Shown here: piece after piece, positions 2,242 to 63,717 of the stretch
Layout of the letters: each line of letters begins with the position of its first letter
How positions within the stretch are numbered: position 1 is the stretch's first letter
Source: a bacterium
Lineage (GTDB): Bacteria; Patescibacteriota; Saccharimonadia; Saccharimonadales; Saccharimonadaceae
Assembly: GCA_027451105.1 (NCBI GenBank)
Contig: DAIDKB010000024.1
Location: forward strand, 1-64,000
Reading direction: 5' to 3'
DNA length: 64,000 bases
Notes under the pieces: model-generated
Seen by the model: only the letters and a program-made list of their open reading frames with translations
Database searches by the model: none
Told to the model about the DNA's origin: nothing
Position numbers and translations under genes: made by a program

Positions 2242-4773
2242 CTACAGTTCGCCCCAGTCCTTGCCGATGCTAACATCAACACGCAGTTTAATGCCCAGCT
2301 GGGGTGCAATATTTTCCATCGTATTTTTTAAGATTTCGGCAATTTTGTCGGCGTTTTCGATCGGTGCTTCGACTAAAATACTATCGTGGATTTGAAGAAT
2401 TTGCTCACCCAGACCGTCCAGTTTTTGATCGACTTCAAGCATCGCCAGCTTCATCAAATCAGCTTCAGTACCCTGAATTGGCATGTTAGCGGCCGCTCGC
2501 TCGGCGCTCTGACGAACAATAAAATTACTGCTATGGATGTCGGGTGTCGGGCGACGACGGCCAAAATAAGTCTCGACATAGCCATCAGTCCGAGCCTGAG
2601 TTAAGGTCGCTTCAATATAACGTCGAATTGGCGCCCGCAGCTCAAAATAGCGGTCGATAAATTTCTTGGCCTCAATAAAAGTCATGCCAGTTGCCGCACT
2701 TAAGCCATGCGGACTCATACCGTATAAAATTCCAAAGTTAATCACCTTAGCATCGCGACGCTGGCGCTTAGTGACGTCGTCCATCGGTACGCTATAGACC
2801 TCGCTAGCTGTCTTGGTATGAATATCGATATCACCATTAAAGTCATTAATCATTTCCTTGTCGCCAGCTAGAATCGCCGCCAGCCGCAGCTCGAATTGTG
2901 AGTAGTCGGCACTGATAAAAATCTTATCGCCATCAGGCACAAAGGCCGATCGAATTTGACGGCCCAAATCGGTTCGGACTGGAATATTTTGCAGGTTCGG
3001 ATTTGTACTGCTAAGTCGGCCGGTACTAGCAACATCCTGATTGAAAGTTGTATGAATCCGGTCTTGGTCATCAGCTAGTTTTGGCAGAGCGTCCACATAG
3101 GTATTTTTAAGCTTGGCTAGCTCCCTAGTGCGCTCAATTAACTCGATGATTGGATGTTGACCACGTAGCTTATCTAGCTCTTTTTGGCCAGTACTATAGC
3201 CCGTTTTGCCTTTTTTAATGCCCGTCGTCGGTAGCTGTAACTTTGTAAATAACACTTCTGAAAGCTGAGCTGGACTGCCGATGTTAAAATCGTAACCGAC
3301 CATTGAATACATTTCTTGTTCAAGCCGGGCATGCTCCTCACCCAGCTTTTGGCTCATTTCGCTAAGGACGGTCGGGTTAATTTTGATACCACGATACTCC
3401 ATTCTAAATAGTATGTAAGTTAGTGGAAAATCAAACTCACGGGCAATTTTAGCCAGCTTTGGTTCGGCCTCAAATTTAGTTAGCTGGGATTGATAAACAC
3501 TCCACATCGCCGCAATCACCCGCTCCGGTGAATCATCAATATCAATACCCGATAGACCGCTTAGGCTACGGTCACGCTGCAAAGGATTAATTAAAAAAGC
3601 TGCTTGATGAATATCGTGAAGTTCGCCAAACTTTACAAAAACTCCAAGCGCCGCTAGCTGATGATAAAGGATCTTGGAGTCGTGACTAACAACCGTCGCC
3701 AACTCAAACACCCGCCATGCACTGCGATCTAGGTCACTAACCCTTGTACGCGCGTACGTCTTATCATTCATCGACAACCAAATCGACTCGTCTTCAACAC
3801 GTAGGACAACCGGCCCATCGATATTAATGACATCAGGCCAAGCGACTTCTTTCATTTCAATTTGATTTAGAGGCGTATCGACTTCTTCCGACTTCTTAGC
3901 CTGCATATGATCTGGCAAACGCCTCACAAGCGAAGAAAACTCCAAACGCTTCAAAATAGCGGCAACTTTATCAAGATCAGTATCGTTGACATCGGCTACA
4001 TCCCAGTCTAATTTAACTGGCGCATCAACCCAAATCCGGCCGACTTCCTTGCTCATATAGGCCAGCTCTTTGCCGGCTACCAGCTTGTTGGCAATCGAAG
4101 GCTTGATATCGTCAATGTGTTCGTAAATATTATCAAGTGTCTTATACTCTTGTAGCAGCGAGATAGCGGTTTTTTCACCAATACCGGGAACACCCGGCAA
4201 ATTATCAGATGAGTCCCCTTTTAACGATTTCAGATCCAAAAATTGTTCGACTTCAATACCATATTTTTTTTCAAAATAATCAACGTCGAACTCTTCCAAA
4301 TTTGATAGACCATTTTTAAGTGCATAAACTTTTGTTAATGGACCAACTAGTTGCAAAGCATCGAGGTCGCTCGTTATAAGATCTGTTTCAATACCCTTAG
4401 CAGTCGCCTCTTTGGCAAAGGCGCCCAATATATCATCGGCCTCATAATCATCCAGCTCGTAAAGTGGCCAGCCAAAAGCGTCTAGCAGCTCAAATAAGAT
4501 TGGCATCTGAGCATAAAAGTCGTCTGGCGCTTTTTTGCGACCCGCCTTGTACTCAGGATATATCTCACGACGCTTACGAATATTAGTGCCTTTTTTATCC
4601 CAAGCCACCGCCACATAATCAGGTTTGAGTTTTTTAATCAGCTCAATTGCCAGCGACGCAAAGCCAAAAACGCCACCAGTTGGCGTGCCATCACTCAGCG
4701 ACAGTCCCGGCATCGAATAATAGCCGCGATAAAACACCGATTTTCCGTCAATTACCGCCAGTCGTTTTGTCAT
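2242..4773 (-). CDS. polA: DNA polymerase I
   Basis: 843 aa. An N-terminal 5' nuclease (PIN domain starting IDGKSVFYRGYY, then the H3TH segment KGDSSDNLPGVPGIGEKT) is followed by a degenerate 3'-5' exonuclease domain with no DxE motif, and a full polymerase domain. Motif A is SADYSQFELR, motif B RRDAKVINFGILYG and motif C QIHDSI. Two family-invariant spots differ: Phe replaces the motif A Ile (E. coli I709) and Ser replaces the Glu of HDE. I chose ATG at 4773 over a TTG six codons upstream because a TATACT -10 box (4780-4785) lies 6 nt before this ATG, which suggests a leaderless mRNA. First gene of the polA-dut operon. Confidence 0.96.
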   Translation of the reverse strand: MTKRLAVIDGKSVFYRGYYSMPGLSLSDGTPTGGVFGFASLAIELIKKLKPDYVAVAWDKKGTNIRKRREIYPEYKAGRKKAPDDFYAQMPILFELLDAFGWPLYELDDYEADDILGAFAKEATAKGIETDLITSDLDALQLVGPLTKVYALKNGLSNLEEFDVDYFEKKYGIEVEQFLDLKSLKGDSSDNLPGVPGIGEKTAISLLQEYKTLDNIYEHIDDIKPSIANKLVAGKELAYMSKEVGRIWVDAPVKLDWDVADVNDTDLDKVAAILKRLEFSSLVRRLPDHMQAKKSEEVDTPLNQIEMKEVAWPDVINIDGPVVLRVEDESIWLSMNDKTYARTRVSDLDRSAWRVFELATVVSHDSKILYHQLAALGVFVKFGELHDIHQAAFLINPLQRDRSLSGLSGIDIDDSPERVIAAMWSVYQSQLTKFEAEPKLAKIAREFDFPLTYILFRMEYRGIKINPTVLSEMSQKLGEEHARLEQEMYSMVGYDFNIGSPAQLSEVLFTKLQLPTTGIKKGKTGYSTGQKELDKLRGQHPIIELIERTRELAKLKNTYVDALPKLADDQDRIHTTFNQDVASTGRLSSTNPNLQNIPVRTDLGRQIRSAFVPDGDKIFISADYSQFELRLAAILAGDKEMINDFNGDIDIHTKTASEVYSVPMDDVTKRQRRDAKVINFGILYGMSPHGLSAATGMTFIEAKKFIDRYFELRAPIRRYIEATLTQARTDGYVETYFGRRRPTPDIHSSNFIVRQSAERAAANMPIQGTEADLMKLAMLEVDQKLDGLGEQILQIHDSILVEAPIENADKIAEILKNTMENIAPQLGIKLRVDVSIGKDWGEL

Positions 4774-23055: not shown

Positions 23056-23232
23056 TGGCAGAGAGAATAGGATATCACTTCGCTCCTCCGCTTGCTTACA
23101 AAAATATGTAAACACATTTTTGTTTCACGACGCTACGCCAAACCTTGCGACTTATGTTGCACAAAAGCATCGCAGGTTCAAACCAGAAATTGCAGTCAAT
23201 TTAAAAGGCGACCGAATGGTCGCTTTTTAAAT
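23056..23232 (-). repeat. tRNA-associated composite palindromic element, copy A
   Basis: Directly downstream of tRNA-Ser(GGA). In tRNA orientation it has the terminator hairpin (GCGACC-ATTC-GGTCGC, 23208-23223) and an inverted T-arm copy (23171-23184). The shared block GGCGTAGCG (23131-23139) follows, then a hairpin with a TGTTTACA loop, GCGGAGGAG and GATATC. It ends with a degenerate direct copy of the tRNA from the T-loop to the discriminator region (23056-23073). No protein is supported across it. Confidence 0.7.
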
Positions 23233-23322
23233 TGGCGGAGAGAACAGGATTCGAACCTGCGATAACGTTGCCGCCATACACGCTTTCCAAGCGTGCGCCT
23301 TCAACCGCTCGGCCATCTCTCC
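23233..23322 (-). tRNA. tRNA-Ser(GGA)
   Basis: 90 nt with encoded CCA. The 7-bp acceptor stem (GGAGAGA/TCTCTCC), long variable arm, T-loop GGTTCGAATCC and discriminator G fit tRNA-Ser. The anticodon loop TTGGAAA gives anticodon GGA, reading UCC and UCU. Confidence 0.96.
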
Positions 23323-55276: not shown

Positions 55277-55451
55277 GGCGGAGAGGGAGGGATTCGGTCA
55301 CGTTCCGCGACCCCGCGACTTCACGATTGGCAACCCAGTTGCCATCGGAAGGTCGCCTTGCGAAATGCCACTGGCATTTCTCACCCTATCGGGTTCGAAT
55401 ACTTCAATTCTCCAAATAGAAACGACGACCACAAGGATCGTCGTCGCTATT
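55277..55451 (-). repeat. tRNA-associated composite palindromic element, copy B (divergent core)
   Basis: Downstream of tRNA-Ser(CGA). In tRNA orientation it has the terminator (CGACGA/TCGTCG with AAATAG/CTATTT), an inverted T-arm copy (55390-55400, with an intact TTCGAA) and several hairpins, including GAAATGCCA/GGCATTTC and GGCAAC/GTTGCC. It ends with a direct 20-bp copy of the tRNA 3' part (55277-55296). It has the same plan as copies A, C and D but lacks their conserved core words. Confidence 0.6.
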
Positions 55452-55541
<90 letters not shown>

Positions 55542-56748: not shown

Positions 56749-56959
56749 TACCAAAGTAAAACCCCCACTAAAAAAGTGGGAATACTCGGCAAGATATCGG
56801 CCTTCGGCCTCCTCCGCTTATTCACGAAAAATTATAAATATTTTTTTCGCTTCTTGCGCTACGCCGAACCTATTTTTGCGTTACGCAAAAAAAGTCAGGT
56901 TCTCATCTGCGCAATGTGACCAAAGTAAAAACCCCACTAAAAAGTGGGGTTTTTACTTT
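56749..56959 (-). repeat. tRNA-associated composite palindromic element, copy C
   Basis: Downstream of tRNA-Arg(GCG). In tRNA orientation it has a 19-20 bp-arm terminator (56918-56937 with 56945-56963) and an inverted T-arm (from 56894). Next come an internal hairpin, GTTCGGCGTAGCG (56857-56869), a hairpin with a TATTTATA loop, GCGGAGGAG and GATATC. It ends with a direct copy of the tRNA 3' end (56784-56795) and a second copy of the terminator (56749-56780). Confidence 0.72.
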
Positions 56960-57036
56960 GGTGAACTCGGCAAGATTCGAACCTGCGACCTTTGGCTCCG
57001 CAAGCCAACGCTCTATCCAGCTGAGCTACGAGTCCA
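56960..57036 (-). tRNA. tRNA-Arg(GCG)
   Basis: 77 nt with encoded CCA. The acceptor is GGACTCG, the D-loop carries the Arg identity A20 (AGCTGGATAG), the anticodon loop is TTGCGGA and the discriminator is A. The anticodon GCG reads CGC/CGU without the usual ACG (inosine). Confidence 0.93.
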
Positions 57037-58924: not shown

Positions 58925-59106
58925 CGGAGGAGGGGAGATATCGCAAGCAAGCTTGCTCCTCCGTTCATTTGCTAGAAAATGTAAACACTTTCTAGCTTCA
59001 TTCGCTACGCCGAACTCCGCGCTCGTTCGCTATCCAGCGAACCGCGGGAGTTCGGATCTCAACCTGGCAAATTAAAAACGAGAACCGAAAGTTCTCGTTT
59101 TTAATT
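58925..59106 (-). repeat. tRNA-associated composite palindromic element, copy D
   Basis: Downstream of tRNA-Ser(GCU). In tRNA orientation it has a terminator (59074-59102) and an inverted tRNA 3'-end copy (59043-59067), followed by a nested hairpin (CGCGGAGTTCGG pairing around GTTCGC-N6-GCGAAC). GTTCGGCGTAGCG (58993-59005), GCTAGAAA/TTTCTAGC with a GTGTTTACA loop, CGGAGGAG and GATATC come next. It ends with a direct copy of the tRNA from T-loop to acceptor end (58925-58939). Confidence 0.72.
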
Positions 59107-59199
59107 TGGCGGAGGAGGGGAGATTCGAACTCCCGCTCCAGGTCTCCCCAGACTAATGATTTAGCAAACCATCCCCTTAAGCCACTTGGGTACCCCTCC
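59107..59199 (-). tRNA. tRNA-Ser(GCU)
   Basis: 93 nt with encoded CCA, long variable arm, acceptor GGAGGGG with one G-T pair, discriminator G. The anticodon loop TTGCTAA gives GCU, reading AGC/AGU. Confidence 0.95.
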
Positions 59200-59333: not shown

Positions 59334-59747
59334 ATGAATAATAAACTAAATATCACTCTCGGACTTACACTAGCCGTCCTTATGATTGGTATTTTTTCAG
59401 TTTTCAACACTCACGCTCTTTATGCTATATCTGACATGACTATACAGTCTGGTGTTAATGCCGCCCACGGCACCAACCAGCCAACTGACTTATTCGGCGC
59501 CAATGGAATTTTTACGACAATCACTAACGTTTTGTTGTTTGCCGTCGGTGTCCTAAGCGTCGTCATGGTGATTGTCGGTGGTCTGCGTTATGTAGTATCC
59601 GGTGGTAATTCTGCCGCCGTCACCGGTGCAAAAAACACCATATTATATGCCATCGTAGGTGTTATCGTGGCCTTCTTGGCCTATGCTGTCGTCAATTTCC
59701 TACTTGGATCACTTGTCGGCAATGGCGTACCGGGCACAAACGTCTAA
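59334..59747 (+). CDS. VirB2/TrbC-like two-helix pilin (paralogue 1)
   Basis: 137 aa. A signal peptide (about 1-32, ending near HALYA) is followed by two membrane helices around a short loop with the locus motif VIVGGLRYVVSGGNSAAVTGAKNTI and IVAFLAYAVVNFLLG. This is the layout of type IV secretion pilins. It is encoded apart from, and opposite to, the five paralogues at 61502-63717. It has AAGGAG before the ATG and ends at a shared bidirectional terminator. Confidence 0.85.
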   Translation: MNNKLNITLGLTLAVLMIGIFSVFNTHALYAISDMTIQSGVNAAHGTNQPTDLFGANGIFTTITNVLLFAVGVLSVVMVIVGGLRYVVSGGNSAAVTGAKNTILYAIVGVIVAFLAYAVVNFLLGSLVGNGVPGTNV

Positions 59748-59762
59748 TATTAACTGTTTTTT

Positions 59763-59799
59763 AAATTAAATAACGACCACACGGGTCGTTATTTAATTT
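59763..59799. terminator. Bidirectional terminator between pilin gene and tRNA-Ser(UGA)
   Basis: A 16-bp perfect stem (59763-59778 with 59784-59799) and a 5-nt loop, with A/T-rich arms on both sides. It abuts the tRNA CCA end. No tRNA-copy element is attached here. Confidence 0.9.
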
Positions 59800-59888
59800 G
59801 GCGGAGAGGGCGAGATTCGAACTCGCGGTACCATTGCTGGCACGACGGTTTTCAAGACCGTTCCCTTAAACCGCTCGGGCACCTCTCC
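59799..59888 (-). tRNA. tRNA-Ser(UGA)
   Basis: 90 nt with encoded CCA, long variable arm, acceptor GGAGAGG, discriminator G. The anticodon loop CTTGAAA gives UGA, reading UCA and other UCN codons. Confidence 0.96.
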
Positions 59889-59933
59889 TGACGTACGTAA
59901 AGTACGAGGCCTATAATAACAGATACCAGACGT

Positions 59934-60599
59934 TCAGTCGAGAGTCTGGCGCGCTAAAACCGCGACCCAAACCCGATCGGCGCCAGCCTCTTTTAGGGCC
60001 TTAGTCGCGTAACGGATCGTCGCCCCAGTCGTCATAACATCATCAATAACTAAATAGTTGACATTCTGCTTAATTTCTCCAGCTACTTTGAAGGCAAACT
60101 TAGCCTGACGACTTCTTGATGCCGCCGTCGCATGTCGCTGCATTGTATTATTACTTCGCGCCAGCACTCTCGCGACCGACAGTCCGCGTAATGTCGCCAG
60201 CCTTTTGGCTAGTAACAGGGTATGATCATAGCCGCGCTCTCTTATATGCGCCGGTATAGTCGGTATCGGCACAATCACCGTATTTTCAGGTAACTGCGGC
60301 AAAATATCATCAAGTAGACCAGCTAAATCCCGGTAAGCCGATTTTGTACGTTCAAACTTGTAAAGACCAACTAATCGTTGCAAAACATCCTTACGATCAC
60401 CAACGCACCAGGCTTGACTGTAAGGCGCCTTACAGGTGTTACAAACACCTTGGCTAAAAGTTGGTCGCCCACATGCCAAACAGACGTTTTTAGTCTCATA
60501 GGTGATGTTATATTTACAATCATGGCATAGTAAACTGCCAGTTTTACCACATCCACAACAGTGGTGAGGAGCGACGTATGAGAGCAGCGTATCTATCAT
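59934..60599 (-). CDS. comFC: ComFC/GntX-type phosphoribosyltransferase
   Basis: 221 aa. An N-terminal double zinc ribbon (CCGCGKTG and LLCHDC, then CLACGRP and VCNTCK) precedes a PRTase domain with the PRPP loop VIDDVMTTGATI. In transformable bacteria ComFC acts with ComFA in DNA uptake or processing, and Saccharibacteria commonly carry competence genes. No other com gene is visible here. Confidence 0.92.
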   Translation of the reverse strand: MIDTLLSYVAPHHCCGCGKTGSLLCHDCKYNITYETKNVCLACGRPTFSQGVCNTCKAPYSQAWCVGDRKDVLQRLVGLYKFERTKSAYRDLAGLLDDILPQLPENTVIVPIPTIPAHIRERGYDHTLLLAKRLATLRGLSVARVLARSNNTMQRHATAASRSRQAKFAFKVAGEIKQNVNYLVIDDVMTTGATIRYATKALKEAGADRVWVAVLARQTLD

Positions 60600-60630
60600 T
60601 GTGTTTTTTACGTTTCCATAGCCTGTTTTG

Positions 60631-60659
60631 TTGATTATACTGCATATGTTGGTTATAAT
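60631..60659 (+). promoter_or_regulatory. hsp20 promoter
   Basis: TTGATT (60631-60636), 17-bp spacer, TATAAT (60654-60659). No CIRCE repeat is visible, so it is apparently regulated differently from groES-groEL. Confidence 0.78.
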
Positions 60660-60705
60660 GTGAGAGACTATTTGTCAATAGAGCCTAGAGAAAGTGGAGG
60701 ATATC

Positions 60706-61173
60706 ATGGCCCGTAAGCAAAACGATGATTTATTGATTGAGGACGAGCTGGCAGCAGCTTTCCTTAATGACGACGAACTAACAACTAATGATACACCAGC
60801 GCCTGAAGCACCAGCCGAAGACACTTGGGACGACAGTGATGAAGAGTTTCCAGGACAGCTTGCTATCGATGTCTACGAGACAGCCGAGAAACTTGTTGTT
60901 AAGGCTCGTACTGCCGGTGTCAACAAAGAAGACTTGGATGTCAGCATTAGCGACGGTATCTTGACCATCAGTGGCACCCTAAGTAGCGGCGACGAGAGCG
61001 ATGCAATCAACTGGCACATTCAAGAATGCTATTGGGGCGAATTTAGCCGTACATTGGCTTTGCCAGTTAACGTTAAAGAAGATGAGGTAGAAGCCGTTCT
61101 GAAAGATGGTGTACTAACAATCAGCTTTAGCAAGGTCAAGCAAGAGCAAGCCAAGAAGATCCAGGTTCTTTAA
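60706..61173 (+). CDS. Small heat-shock protein (Hsp20/alpha-crystallin)
   Basis: 155 aa ATP-independent holdase. A long acidic N-terminal arm (about 1-50) precedes the alpha-crystallin domain (ELAIDVYETAEKLVVKART-type start, GVNKEDLDVSISDGILTISG, and the closing VLKDGVLTISF). The usual I-x-I tail is only weakly kept (KKIQVL). The ATG at 60706 is chosen because GGAGG lies 7 nt upstream. Followed by its own terminator. Confidence 0.93.
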   Translation: MARKQNDDLLIEDELAAAFLNDDELTTNDTPAPEAPAEDTWDDSDEEFPGQLAIDVYETAEKLVVKARTAGVNKEDLDVSISDGILTISGTLSSGDESDAINWHIQECYWGEFSRTLALPVNVKEDEVEAVLKDGVLTISFSKVKQEQAKKIQVL

Positions 61174-61193
61174 TACAAAAACCGATCAAAATT

Positions 61194-61224
61194 ATATAAC
61201 CCTCATTACGAGGGTTATATTTTT
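61194..61224 (+). terminator. hsp20 terminator
   Basis: A 10-bp perfect stem (61194-61203 with 61211-61220), loop CATTACG, then TTTTG. Confidence 0.85.
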
Positions 61225-61453
61225 GATTAAATATTATGCAATCCCTACTTTTACCAAAGTCAAATGTCTTGATACTTTGGAACTGCAAAAGTATCCAAAA
61301 CTGCTAGGGTTGCTTGGTAGAGCCGCGCGCCTAACTACTACGAACAATTACTCTGCAGCCCGAGTACGACAAGACGCCGAGGCTCTTGTTCGTACCCGGA
61401 GCGAAGCCCGGTTGGAGGAGTGGTTAGGTGCGCCGTTGAGGTGGCTTGGCATT
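61225..61453. other. Unassigned segment between two terminators
   Basis: About 230 bp flanked by the hsp20 terminator and the pilin-operon terminator. It holds GATACTTT/AAAGTATC and CCGG-AGCGAAGC-CCGG hairpins and G/C-richer blocks. One reading frame (61223-61498) spans it but runs through the second terminator and lacks protein-like features. It could be a small RNA, tRNA-derived debris or nothing; I cannot identify it. Confidence 0.35.
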
Positions 61454-61486
61454 AAAAATAACCCCACACTTGGCGGGGTTATTTTT
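61454..61486. terminator. Terminator of the pilin operon
   Basis: A 12-bp perfect stem (61454-61465 with 61475-61486), 9-nt loop, T/A runs on both sides. It lies just past the stop codon of the last minus-strand pilin gene. Confidence 0.88.
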
Positions 61487-61501
61487 AAAGAAAGGTAAAT
61501 C

Positions 61502-61906
61502 TTATTTACTTAGGCTTGTAAGAACCCAGTTGACGATAGCATAGGCTAGGAAAGCAATTACCAAACCAACCAAGGCGTACATAATAGTGTTCTTAGCTGC
61601 TGTAACCTGTGCGGCCGTACCGTTTGATACAGTGTAGCGAATACCGCCGACGATCAGCATAACAACGCTTAAGGCACCGATAACGTAAAGTAGGGTGTTG
61701 ATAATGGTAGTAAAGACACCGCCGGTACCAAACAAGCTTTTAGCTGAACCACTTGTACTTGCGCAGTCAACGCCATCAGCAACACTTGTACCGTCAGCAC
61801 AGGCGGCTGAAGCGGTTGATACTACTGGTGTGAACAGGGTTAATCCTAAGGCCAGTGCTGGCACTGCAAGCAGACCGGCGATGGCTGTTGTTATTGATTT
61901 TTTCAT
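61502..61906 (-). CDS. VirB2/TrbC-like two-helix pilin (paralogue 2)
   Basis: 134 aa. A signal peptide (about 1-33, cleaved near STASA) is followed by a loop with two Cys (CADGTSVADGVDC), a first helix, the family motif LIVGGIRYTVSNGTAAQVTAAKNTI and a second helix (VIAFLAYAIVNWVL). Closest in sequence to paralogues 1 and 3. AAGGAAA precedes the ATG. It lies 77 bp downstream of the 61984 gene. Confidence 0.87.
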   Translation of the reverse strand: MKKSITTAIAGLLAVPALALGLTLFTPVVSTASAACADGTSVADGVDCASTSGSAKSLFGTGGVFTTIINTLLYVIGALSVVMLIVGGIRYTVSNGTAAQVTAAKNTIMYALVGLVIAFLAYAIVNWVLTSLSK

Positions 61907-61983
61907 TATTTTATTTCCTTTCTTAGAAACTATATATTAAAGTTATACCAGACTCTGGGTCTTTTGTTAAGCCCCTACGGCCT

Positions 61984-62418
61984 CTATTTACTACATGTCT
62001 TAGAGGAGGCGTTGTAAACACCGCCTTTTTGTTGACATTGTTGCTGAGCCGACGGGTTAAACAATCCATAAACCCAGTTAACTAAAGCGTAGGCCAAAAA
62101 GGCGACCGCCAAACCGACTAAGGCATAGGTTATTGTGTTTTTAGCTCGCGTCACATTACTGGCATTGCCCGCCGATAAGGTATACATAATGCCGCCAATA
62201 ATCACCATAACAACCGAAACTAGTCCAACCAAAAATACGAGGGTATTAATAACCTTCGTAATAAGCGGCTGAGCAGTATTGCTGGTGTTCTTACATACCA
62301 AACTGTCAGTTACCCCGTTACAAGGCTGAAAGTTGTCTATCGCGTGCGTGGCCACTGGCGCAAACAAGGTGCCAACCAGCACAGCAAGACCAGCGACAAT
62401 TAATCCTATTTTTTTCAT
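61984..62418 (-). CDS. VirB2/TrbC-like two-helix pilin (paralogue 3)
   Basis: 144 aa. Signal peptide (about 1-26), a Cys-containing segment (FQPCNGVTDSLVCKN), two helices around IIGGIMYTLSAGNASNVTRAKNTI and LAYALVNWVYG, and an additional Gln/Cys-rich C-terminal tail (QQQCQQKGG to KTCSK) not seen in the other copies, probably disulfide-bonded. It starts directly next to the 62419 stop codon. Confidence 0.87.
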   Translation of the reverse strand: MKKIGLIVAGLAVLVGTLFAPVATHAIDNFQPCNGVTDSLVCKNTSNTAQPLITKVINTLVFLVGLVSVVMVIIGGIMYTLSAGNASNVTRAKNTITYALVGLAVAFLAYALVNWVYGLFNPSAQQQCQQKGGVYNASSKTCSK

Positions 62419-62697
62419 TTAAAATCTTCCTGTTACAAAGTGGGTAATAGTAAATGCTAGCAATATTACGACCAAGCCAATCACTGCATATAAAATAGCA
62501 TTTCGGGCCTTAGCGACATTAGCTGGGTTGTTACCAGATACAGTCATATTAAAGCCAGAAATGATAATCACAATCACCGCAACGACACCTGCAACGAAGT
62601 AAAACAAATTTAAAATATTTGTCACCAGCTGATCCCCAGTCTGAGATGGAATCCCAATATCGCTAGCAGCTAAAGCAAACTTATCTAAAATATTCAT
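62419..62697 (-). CDS. VirB2/TrbC-like two-helix pilin (paralogue 4, shortest)
   Basis: 92 aa, without an obvious cleaved signal: a short amphipathic start is followed by the two helices. The pilin motif reads IIISGFNMTVSGNNPANVAKARNAI, then VGLVVILLAFTITHFV. It is the most divergent member by length and could be an anchored assembly subunit. Abuts paralogues 3 and 5 within 2 bp. Confidence 0.83.
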   Translation of the reverse strand: MNILDKFALAASDIGIPSQTGDQLVTNILNLFYFVAGVVAVIVIIISGFNMTVSGNNPANVAKARNAILYAVIGLVVILLAFTITHFVTGRF

Positions 62698-62698
62698 A

Positions 62699-63187
62699 TT
62701 ATTTAATTATCCCCATTACTAAGTTAACAACTCCGACCGACCCAATTGAAATAACCAGTCCGATAACAGCGTTCAAGATTGTCTTGCGGCCACGTGCGGT
62801 TGCATCGGGCGAACCATTACTGACGATCATCGTAAAGCCACCGTACAAGATAAAGCCGACCGCAACATATCCGACAGCCCTTAGGACAATATCCATAATG
62901 TTTAGGACAACGCGCCAAATAAAGTTAGATAGGCCGTTATTCCCGCCATTTGTGTCTGTATTCAACGCGTCGGGCGACACCAGACTACAGTCAGCTTGGC
63001 TAACATTTAAGCCTCGATACCATACCGGGAACCCCAAGAACGACTTAGCGTTAGTACAGGTGTACGTTGTGACCGCAGCAGATGCAACACCACTGTTTGT
63101 TGGGTTGGCAACCGCTACAACCGTTCCGCCCACCAAACTAGCGAAGGCCAGTCCTAATACTAGTGATGTGAATTTAGTCGTTATCAT
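62699..63187 (-). CDS. VirB2/TrbC-like two-helix pilin (paralogue 5)
   Basis: 162 aa. Signal peptide (about 1-35), a long exported linker with two Cys (YTCTNAK, QADCSLV) and an Asn/Gly-rich stretch, then the helical pair around LYGGFTMIVSNGSPDATARGRKTI and VIGLVISIGSVGVVNLV. The pilin motif is more diverged (Arg-Lys instead of Lys-Asn). Overlaps paralogue 6 by one base. Confidence 0.85.
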   Translation of the reverse strand: MITTKFTSLVLGLAFASLVGGTVVAVANPTNSGVASAAVTTYTCTNAKSFLGFPVWYRGLNVSQADCSLVSPDALNTDTNGGNNGLSNFIWRVVLNIMDIVLRAVGYVAVGFILYGGFTMIVSNGSPDATARGRKTILNAVIGLVISIGSVGVVNLVMGIIK

Positions 63188-63717
63188 TAGTTAAACAAGC
63201 CTCCAGGAGTTATAAAGTTCAGGATTGCGTACATAAAGGCGTAGGCAATGATTCCAATAACTACATTAGTAATAATCGATCGAGCCTTTTTGACATTTTC
63301 GGGGTTACCACCAGCACTAGCGTACATAACCGACCCATAGATGATTCCAGCGACGGCTACGATACCCACGCCAGCGGTCAATATGTTAATCAACATCAGC
63401 AATAAGCCCCAAACACCAGACTGTTCGACAGATGTATTTGGCGCACTACCGTTGGCGCATTTACCGTATTCATGATGATATTTTGCTAAATAATCAGCTT
63501 GCTTTGCAACCAACTTGGTGGCATCTGTATCGCTCGGCTTAGTACCCTCGTACGGGTCGGTGCCGTCGGAGCAAAGACCTTGCTGGCTACAGTTTATTAT
63601 GCTCGTCTGTACACCGGCACAAGTTGCCGCATGCGACGATGGGCCAATAAGACCAGATGCGCCTATAGTCACCGCTAGTCCGATTACTATAGTTTTAATT
63701 GTTTGTTTTATCTTCAT
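63187..63717 (-). CDS. VirB2/TrbC-like two-helix pilin (paralogue 6)
   Basis: 176 aa. Signal peptide (about 1-30, cleaved near SSHA), a Cys-rich exported region with four Cys (ATCAGVQ, INCSQQG, LCSDG and KCANGS), then two helices around GIIYGSVMYASAGGNPENVKKARSII and IIAYAFMYAILNFI. It is first in the five-gene pilin operon. It probably forms part of a type IV secretion-like or surface filament whose ATPases lie outside the window. Confidence 0.87.
   Translation of the reverse strand: MKIKQTIKTIVIGLAVTIGASGLIGPSSHAATCAGVQTSIINCSQQGLCSDGTDPYEGTKPSDTDATKLVAKQADYLAKYHHEYGKCANGSAPNTSVEQSGVWGLLLMLINILTAGVGIVAVAGIIYGSVMYASAGGNPENVKKARSIITNVVIGIIAYAFMYAILNFITPGGLFN

Follow-up and report, generated by a model that had tools for sequence, protein, structure and literature searches.

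What is the run of nested hairpins that follows the tRNA-Ser(GCU) gene at this locus, and why does it carry pieces of that tRNA's own T-arm? We have examined it in the 64,000-nucleotide stretch of DNA analysed here (the window), in the 919 kb genome to which the window belongs, and in other Saccharibacteria, where we find hundreds of related elements. We consider it probable that these elements are gene-less mobile DNA that inserts in the T-loops of tRNA genes and is moved, as folded single-stranded DNA, by a trans-acting enzyme. The insertion model is well supported; the copying step and the enzyme that we propose with it are more conjectural.

Anatomy of the insertion at tRNA-Ser(GCU)

Read on the minus strand of 58925-59199 from the tRNA towards the displaced end, the segment (copy D) consists, in order, of the tRNA-Ser(GCU) gene (59107-59199), a terminator, an inverted T-arm GAGATCCGAACTCCCGC, an apical hairpin, a direct half T-arm GCGCGGAGTTC, GGCGTAGCG, a hairpin with TGTTTACA, GGAGGAG, a small hairpin, GATATC and a displaced tRNA end CTCCCCTCCTCCG. 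We assign its parts as follows.

59107-59199, minus strand: host tRNA-Ser(GCU) gene (ARAGORN and Rfam)
59107-59126, minus strand: last 20 nt of that gene, from tRNA position 57, the putative element-supplied copy of the 3' half, with the native 3' half displaced downstream
59068-59106, minus strand: symmetric, element-borne terminator hairpin, AATTAAAAACGAGAAC-TTTC-GGTTCTCGTTTTTAATTTG (from the sequence)
59044-59070, minus strand: mirror (inverted) copy of the host tRNA 3' end, best conserved in its T-arm part, GAGATCCGAACTCCCGC (59044-59060)
59023-59043, minus strand: apical part of hairpin 1, element-owned, GGTTCGCTGGATAGCGAACGA (from the fold)
59012-59022, minus strand: direct copy of the host T-stem 5' half with TTC at its end, GCGCGGAGTTC (from the tracking comparison)
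58940-59011, minus strand: type-1 core Y, comprising GGCGTAGCG, hairpin 2, GGAGGAG, hairpin 3 and GAT (conserved in other genomes)
58971-58996, minus strand: hairpin 2 of the core, loop GTTTAC
58956-58962, minus strand: GGAGGAG of the core
58925-58939, minus strand: displaced native tRNA 3' half, ATC TCCCCTCCTCCG, from tRNA position 59 (15/18 match to the tRNA tail)

The inverted copy matches the reverse complement of the 5' half of the host T-arm at 10/10 positions, and the tip of hairpin 1 in relatives is usually TTTTGC-GNA-GCAAAA. As a single strand copy D folds at -37.6 kcal/mol (z = -6.3), and 0/200 shuffles were equally stable. GGAGGAG-N-GATATC occurs four times in the window against none expected; three of the matches are elements, the fourth being an overlapping match on the opposite strand within copy D. 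The other copies in the window are these.

23071-23139, minus strand: core of copy A, at tRNA-Ser(GGA) 23233-23322
55277-55451, minus strand: copy B, a type-2 element at tRNA-Ser(CGA) 55452-55541, ending GTGACC and then displaced GAATCCCTCCCTCTCCGCC
56793-56865, minus strand: core of copy C, at tRNA-Arg(GCG) 56959-57035, with a degraded terminator copy after the displaced end

The exact three-motif pattern has three occurrences in the genome, all within the window (contig C23). Profile R1 finds elements beyond these, copy B is matched by a second model, R2, at 55289-55399 (E 2.4e-30), and insertions were found at no fewer than 13 of the 41 tRNA genes in this genome. The elements are about 165 bp long and sit at the T-loop. 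Along the tRNA, the left part of the layout runs from the 5' half through the T-stem S, ending TTC, to a 3' half with CCA and a symmetric terminator; the right part consists of an inverted tRNA end (best in the T-arm), the hairpin-1 tip, a direct copy of S, the core Y and the displaced 3' half. In type 1, Y is GGCG...GAT and takes the place of tRNA positions 57-58, so that host sequence picks up at position 59: at the right junction GAT is followed by GTC in Pro and Tyr elements and by ATTCC in a Met element, each as in its own tRNA. The sequence-only reading took GATATC as constant element sequence; GAT is indeed the element's own, but ATC is host sequence (tRNA positions 59-61). In type 2, Y starts after T-stem position 53 and ends GTGACC, with host sequence from position 57 onward; this genome has copy B and elements at Lys, Leu, Met and Arg(TCT) tRNAs. 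A third type, at Gly and Phe tRNAs, ends GACCGCC. Overall the hosts are tRNAs for 14 amino acids. A search for open reading frames inside the elements found none of substance, hence no encoded integrase.

Confirmed elements all lie at tRNAs or decayed tRNAs, with no dispersed extragenic positions; the few model matches in G000 that lack a called tRNA are at decayed tRNAs or at sites of uncertain nature. On contig C15 of the present genome (L278) there are two type-2 matches 2.5 kb apart, at 670-791 and 3226-3355, without a called tRNA, the first of them coming after a CCA-like tRNA end. A type-2 variant in which GGCCGGAAGCCGGATGACGAACGTCACCGACTGAGGCGGGG replaces the usual second hairpin occurs at Ile and Arg(TCT) tRNAs (L128 1005-1340, and L112). 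We also note that tandem small pilin/VirB2-like paralogues (window 59334-63717) adjoin both tRNA-Ser genes, in a cluster conserved in the genus.

Host-derived arms and an element-owned core

The observation from which this work started, that the arms of copy D match its own tRNA's T-arm and differ from those of copies A and C, holds: D has GAACTC/GAGTTC, A has GAACCTGCGA with an imperfect AAGGTTT, and C has GAACCTG/AGGTTC. To it had been joined the claim that the variable part has tracked the host tRNA. We scored the inverted and direct copies of each element against its own tRNA and against permuted tRNAs; because the elements are only partly independent, the permutation figures that follow are inexact as probabilities. 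For type 1 (n=67) the inverted copy scored 8.57/10 with its own tRNA against 6.98±0.12 when permuted, the maximum in 5000 permutations being 7.52, and the direct copy scored 7.09 against 5.84 (sd 0.11), a few cores being anchored somewhat late, to the detriment of the direct-copy score but not of the inverted one. For type 2 (n=29) the inverted copy scored 7.86 against 6.71±0.15, and the T-stem side of the direct copy 6.07/7 against 5.09. The tracking is thus real, and statistically it is strong. It is not universal: about one third of type-1 elements follow their host weakly, and arms that ignore the adjacent tRNA, which the sequence-only reading had named as the outcome that would count against it, are found in a minority, 22/67 inverted copies being best matched by a tRNA other than their own. 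A minority of elements, including some at Tyr, Arg and Asp tRNAs, have no more than the generic arms GAACC/GGTTC, in some cases around a bare GNA loop.

The core behaves differently. In 44/67 type-1 cases the nearest core Y is found beside a tRNA of different amino-acid specificity, and between genomes mean Y identity is 0.686 for same-anticodon pairs and 0.675 for different-amino-acid pairs; G033 has near-identical Y sequences, one at a tRNA-Ser and the other at a tRNA-Arg, and each is flanked by the arms of its own tRNA. Since the arms track the tRNA and Y is decoupled from tRNA identity, the proposed division into element-owned and tRNA-derived sequence was correct in kind, but its boundaries need correction. 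The terminator hairpin, the hairpin-1 tip and the core Y are element-owned. Both T-arm copies, mirrored and direct, appear to be target-derived, as does the 3' half, and, to judge from arms that track the tRNA beside a decoupled Y, all three would be matched to the target when the element arrives at a new tRNA. The supposed constancy of TGTTTACA fared less well, as it is present in A and D only, C having ATATTTATAAT; it is nevertheless common, the loop being GTTTAC in 33/65 hairpins, yet replaceable.

Filled, empty and stacked sites

In one genus, the syntenic tRNA-Ser(GCU) beside a pilin-like gene is filled in G000, G218, G101 and G124, and no element was seen at this site in G132, G190, G203, G080 and G114. 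At one occupied site (L179), comparison with empty sites gives 0.83 for the terminator after the displaced end, which is the one seen at empty sites, and 0.74 for the proximal terminator, which is of the symmetric kind; a clear empty-site match was found at 1/11 occupied Ser(GCU) sites. In occupied sites the terminator that directly follows CCA usually bears no relation to that beyond the displaced end, and where the displaced 3' half is nearly intact the two are at least 0.8 alike in 3/44 cases. As proximal and distal terminators mostly differ, the exact limits of the mobile unit vary. Perfect duplication of the 3' half plus terminator is seen at two sites, Lys-CTT and His.

Elements also stack. 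Beyond a type-1 element, the right end of a type-2 element is seen in L070, L144, L145, L163 and L180, the order in L294 (G101) is type 2, type 1, type 2, and in such stacks the newest element adjoins the tRNA. Y lies in the opposite orientation at two tRNAs, the remaining parts keeping that of the tRNA, a pattern that fits insertion into the near-palindrome TTCGAA and is hard to square with a fixed RNA function. Taken together, the patchy sites within the genus, the stacking and the two inverted cores indicate mobile DNA and not a fixed RNA gene, although loss could account for part of the difference between filled and empty sites. No excised form or autonomous relative was found in the genomes searched. 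In L024 (1990-2125), a tRNA-Gln-like pseudogene, whose anticodon loop reads TTA, has its T-loop directly split by a type-1 core.

With profile R1, type 1 was found in 97/394 genomes of the family, representing 30/61 of its genera. Type 2 is present in 62/244 genomes and 38/109 genera of Saccharimonadia, with up to at least 14 copies per genome, and in a phylum-wide sample (n=379) a single match, itself marginal, lay outside the class. About one quarter of sampled Saccharimonadia genomes carry these insertions. An exact-pattern scan of 84,980 species gave genuine matches only in Saccharibacteria and like Patescibacteria records; matches outside Saccharibacteria and on one viral contig were dismissed, having no tRNA and lying inside coding-like DNA. 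Phage, plasmid and viral collections held no match beyond chance, only tRNAs reached the gathering score in Rfam, with no match worth reporting for the element, and we found no description of such elements in open-access full text.

How the elements might move

The hairpins offer some indication of the moving form. In type-2 stems 13 pairs have changed on both sides and 100% of cells are paired, so that structure is conserved more than sequence, as is expected of attC-like sites. GNA or ANA triloops cap 37/63 hairpin-1 tips and 0/67 terminators. GNA loops form unusually stable DNA hairpins (PMC4686876), and attC recombines as folded single-stranded DNA (PMC8946536). The triloops and the likeness to attC suggest that these elements, too, may move as folded single-stranded DNA. 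As to which strand folds, G-T pairs outnumber A-C pairs by 46 to 11 in raw counts, an apparent excess that shrinks to 14 to 8 with repeated contexts collapsed.

On our model the element inserts into the T-loop after position 56 of a tRNA gene, setting its copy of the 3' half and its terminator against the tRNA 5' half. As the element supplies both, the tRNA stays functional, and the native 3' half is pushed downstream; the anatomy shows this, as does, at one site, the displaced terminator that matches empty sites. The mirrored and direct T-arm copies would be taken from the target at each new tRNA. Hairpins of the folded strand could form a site resembling a T-arm, at which one strand is exchanged with the T-loop and replication follows, much as in integron cassettes. 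Candidates for the trans-acting enzyme are the Xer recombinase of the host, a HUH transposase of the RAYT-like kind, and an enzyme encoded by some plasmid or phage that we have not seen. We found no dedicated enzyme common to the carrier genomes. Across 28 genomes of the genus, Y1 transposases are present in 17/28 and reverse transcriptases in 11/28, and these, like extra tyrosine recombinases, were rejected as the common enzyme for their inconsistent presence; no element ends were seen at the loci around second integrases. The tyrosine recombinase (Pfam PF00589) is usually one gene per carrier genome, which we take to be Xer, as it is uniform in size and universally present.

For the copying step, the strongest rival is fold-back (template-switch) replication, which could give rise to the mirrored arrangement with no dedicated enzyme. 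A nascent strand would turn at the terminator palindrome, copy the tRNA end in reverse, turn again at hairpin 1 and enter Y, so that Y would be the sole foreign piece and no integrase would be needed. This predicts the observed zig-zag order of tRNA end, palindrome, inverted end, palindrome and direct end, and it accounts for the tracking and for the tRNA orientation that the rest keeps even with Y inverted. We nevertheless judge it unlikely: hairpin-1 tips carry recurrent element-like sequence (TTTTGCNNAGCAAAA), the terminator often differs from the native one, and the repetition of one layout at tRNAs of many amino acids, with three Y types and class-wide, points to an organised process. Rather unlikely, too, is movement in trans by RAYT-like HUH (Y1) transposases, as in REP/REPIN systems. 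In 244 genomes RAYT-like genes are found in 29/62 type-2 carriers and 16/182 non-carriers (odds ratio 9.1, p 5e-10, uncorrected for phylogeny), and several such genes, encoding about 208-224 aa, lie just past tRNA-Met and tRNA-Glu genes (L202, L203, L205 and L210). The gene is, however, absent from 33/62 type-2 carriers; among them is G459, a complete genome with at least 14 element copies, and no Y1 transposase was found there or in G101, which has many type-1 and type-2 elements. The RAYT loci near tRNAs were also rejected as autonomous versions of the element, since unrelated palindromes of their own flank them.

The elements might, on another view, be old attachment-site scars of ordinary phages or integrative elements using tRNA T-loops, for such sites typically show duplicated tRNA 3' ends and stacking. 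We think this improbable, given that more than 60 copies have the full architecture with the core at a nearly constant 75-100 bp after the tRNA; no longer, gene-bearing version was seen, the phage, plasmid and viral collections gave no match, and carriers usually have one tyrosine recombinase only. Least probable of all is that the tRNA or its terminator is regulated here in cis, by an RNA or by a second T-arm acting as a switch. The hairpins are conserved with compensatory changes and the two T-stem halves are able to pair in alternative ways, but the segment sits beyond a strong terminator, varies in presence at the same tRNA among close relatives, occurs with Y inverted and has no noteworthy Rfam counterpart.

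We return, then, to gene-less DNA moved in trans, and ask which known systems it resembles. The elements share with integron cassettes (attC) imperfect palindromes, variable stems, the absence of a recombinase from the unit and stacking at a preferred site. Unlike cassettes, they target tRNA T-loops and not attI and copy the host T-arm, no integron integrase was recognised here (the PF00589 gene being presumed Xer), and in place of the fixed R/L box consensus GTTRRRY/RYYYAAC the hairpin-1 arms follow the host tRNA (GAACTC, GAACCTACG, CCAAACCT and others). Like REP/REPIN sequences with RAYTs they are gene-less palindromic units (of about 100 bp in REP/REPIN) with a statistical association to RAYT-like genes, but they are site-specific in tRNA genes, contain tRNA copies and are abundant without RAYT. 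With tRNA-targeted prophages, ICEs and satellites they have in common T-loop insertion, a restored tRNA 3' end, a displaced copy and tandem accretion, but they differ from these in having about 165 bp, no genes, a mirrored T-arm hairpin and tRNAs for 14 amino acids as hosts. Hairpin ends are also a feature of IS200/IS605 and derived miniature elements, for which single-stranded intermediates are known (PMC6006769); here there is no Y1 gene inside the elements or in all carriers, the targets are tRNA T-loops, and target sequence is both duplicated and mirrored.

The elements thus fail at least one defining, testable feature of each known kind compared, and on this ground we class them as gene-less, tRNA-targeted mobile DNA. 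Our more tentative suggestion is that they may form a new class of mobile element, remaking part of their own sequence at every new target: gene-less folded single-stranded DNA of less than 200 bases that enters the T-loop, copies its target's T-arm both ways, rebuilds the tRNA it splits, and uses only a host recombinase (e.g. Xer) or the replication machinery. The elements would be among the smallest known site-specific mobile elements, with target-derived sequence written in, and they offer a natural setting in which to study how insertion into an essential gene can leave the host alive.

The insertions also distort annotation: each of them creates a spurious tRNA 3' end and a spurious repeat. 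A tRNA-like end, CTTCCTGAAACACRTCCACTAGCCCCAGCCA, precedes Gln-type elements in L118 (1600-2300) and L148 (450-850); it is common to two genera and is possibly a decayed or unusual tRNA. Lastly, L107 has a distinct repeat 3' of a tRNA-Ala(GGC); it contains pieces that resemble a T-arm, GGTACCTGAACCCT ... GGTTCGAGTCCTGTTAGGTCCC, and is possibly a fourth type.
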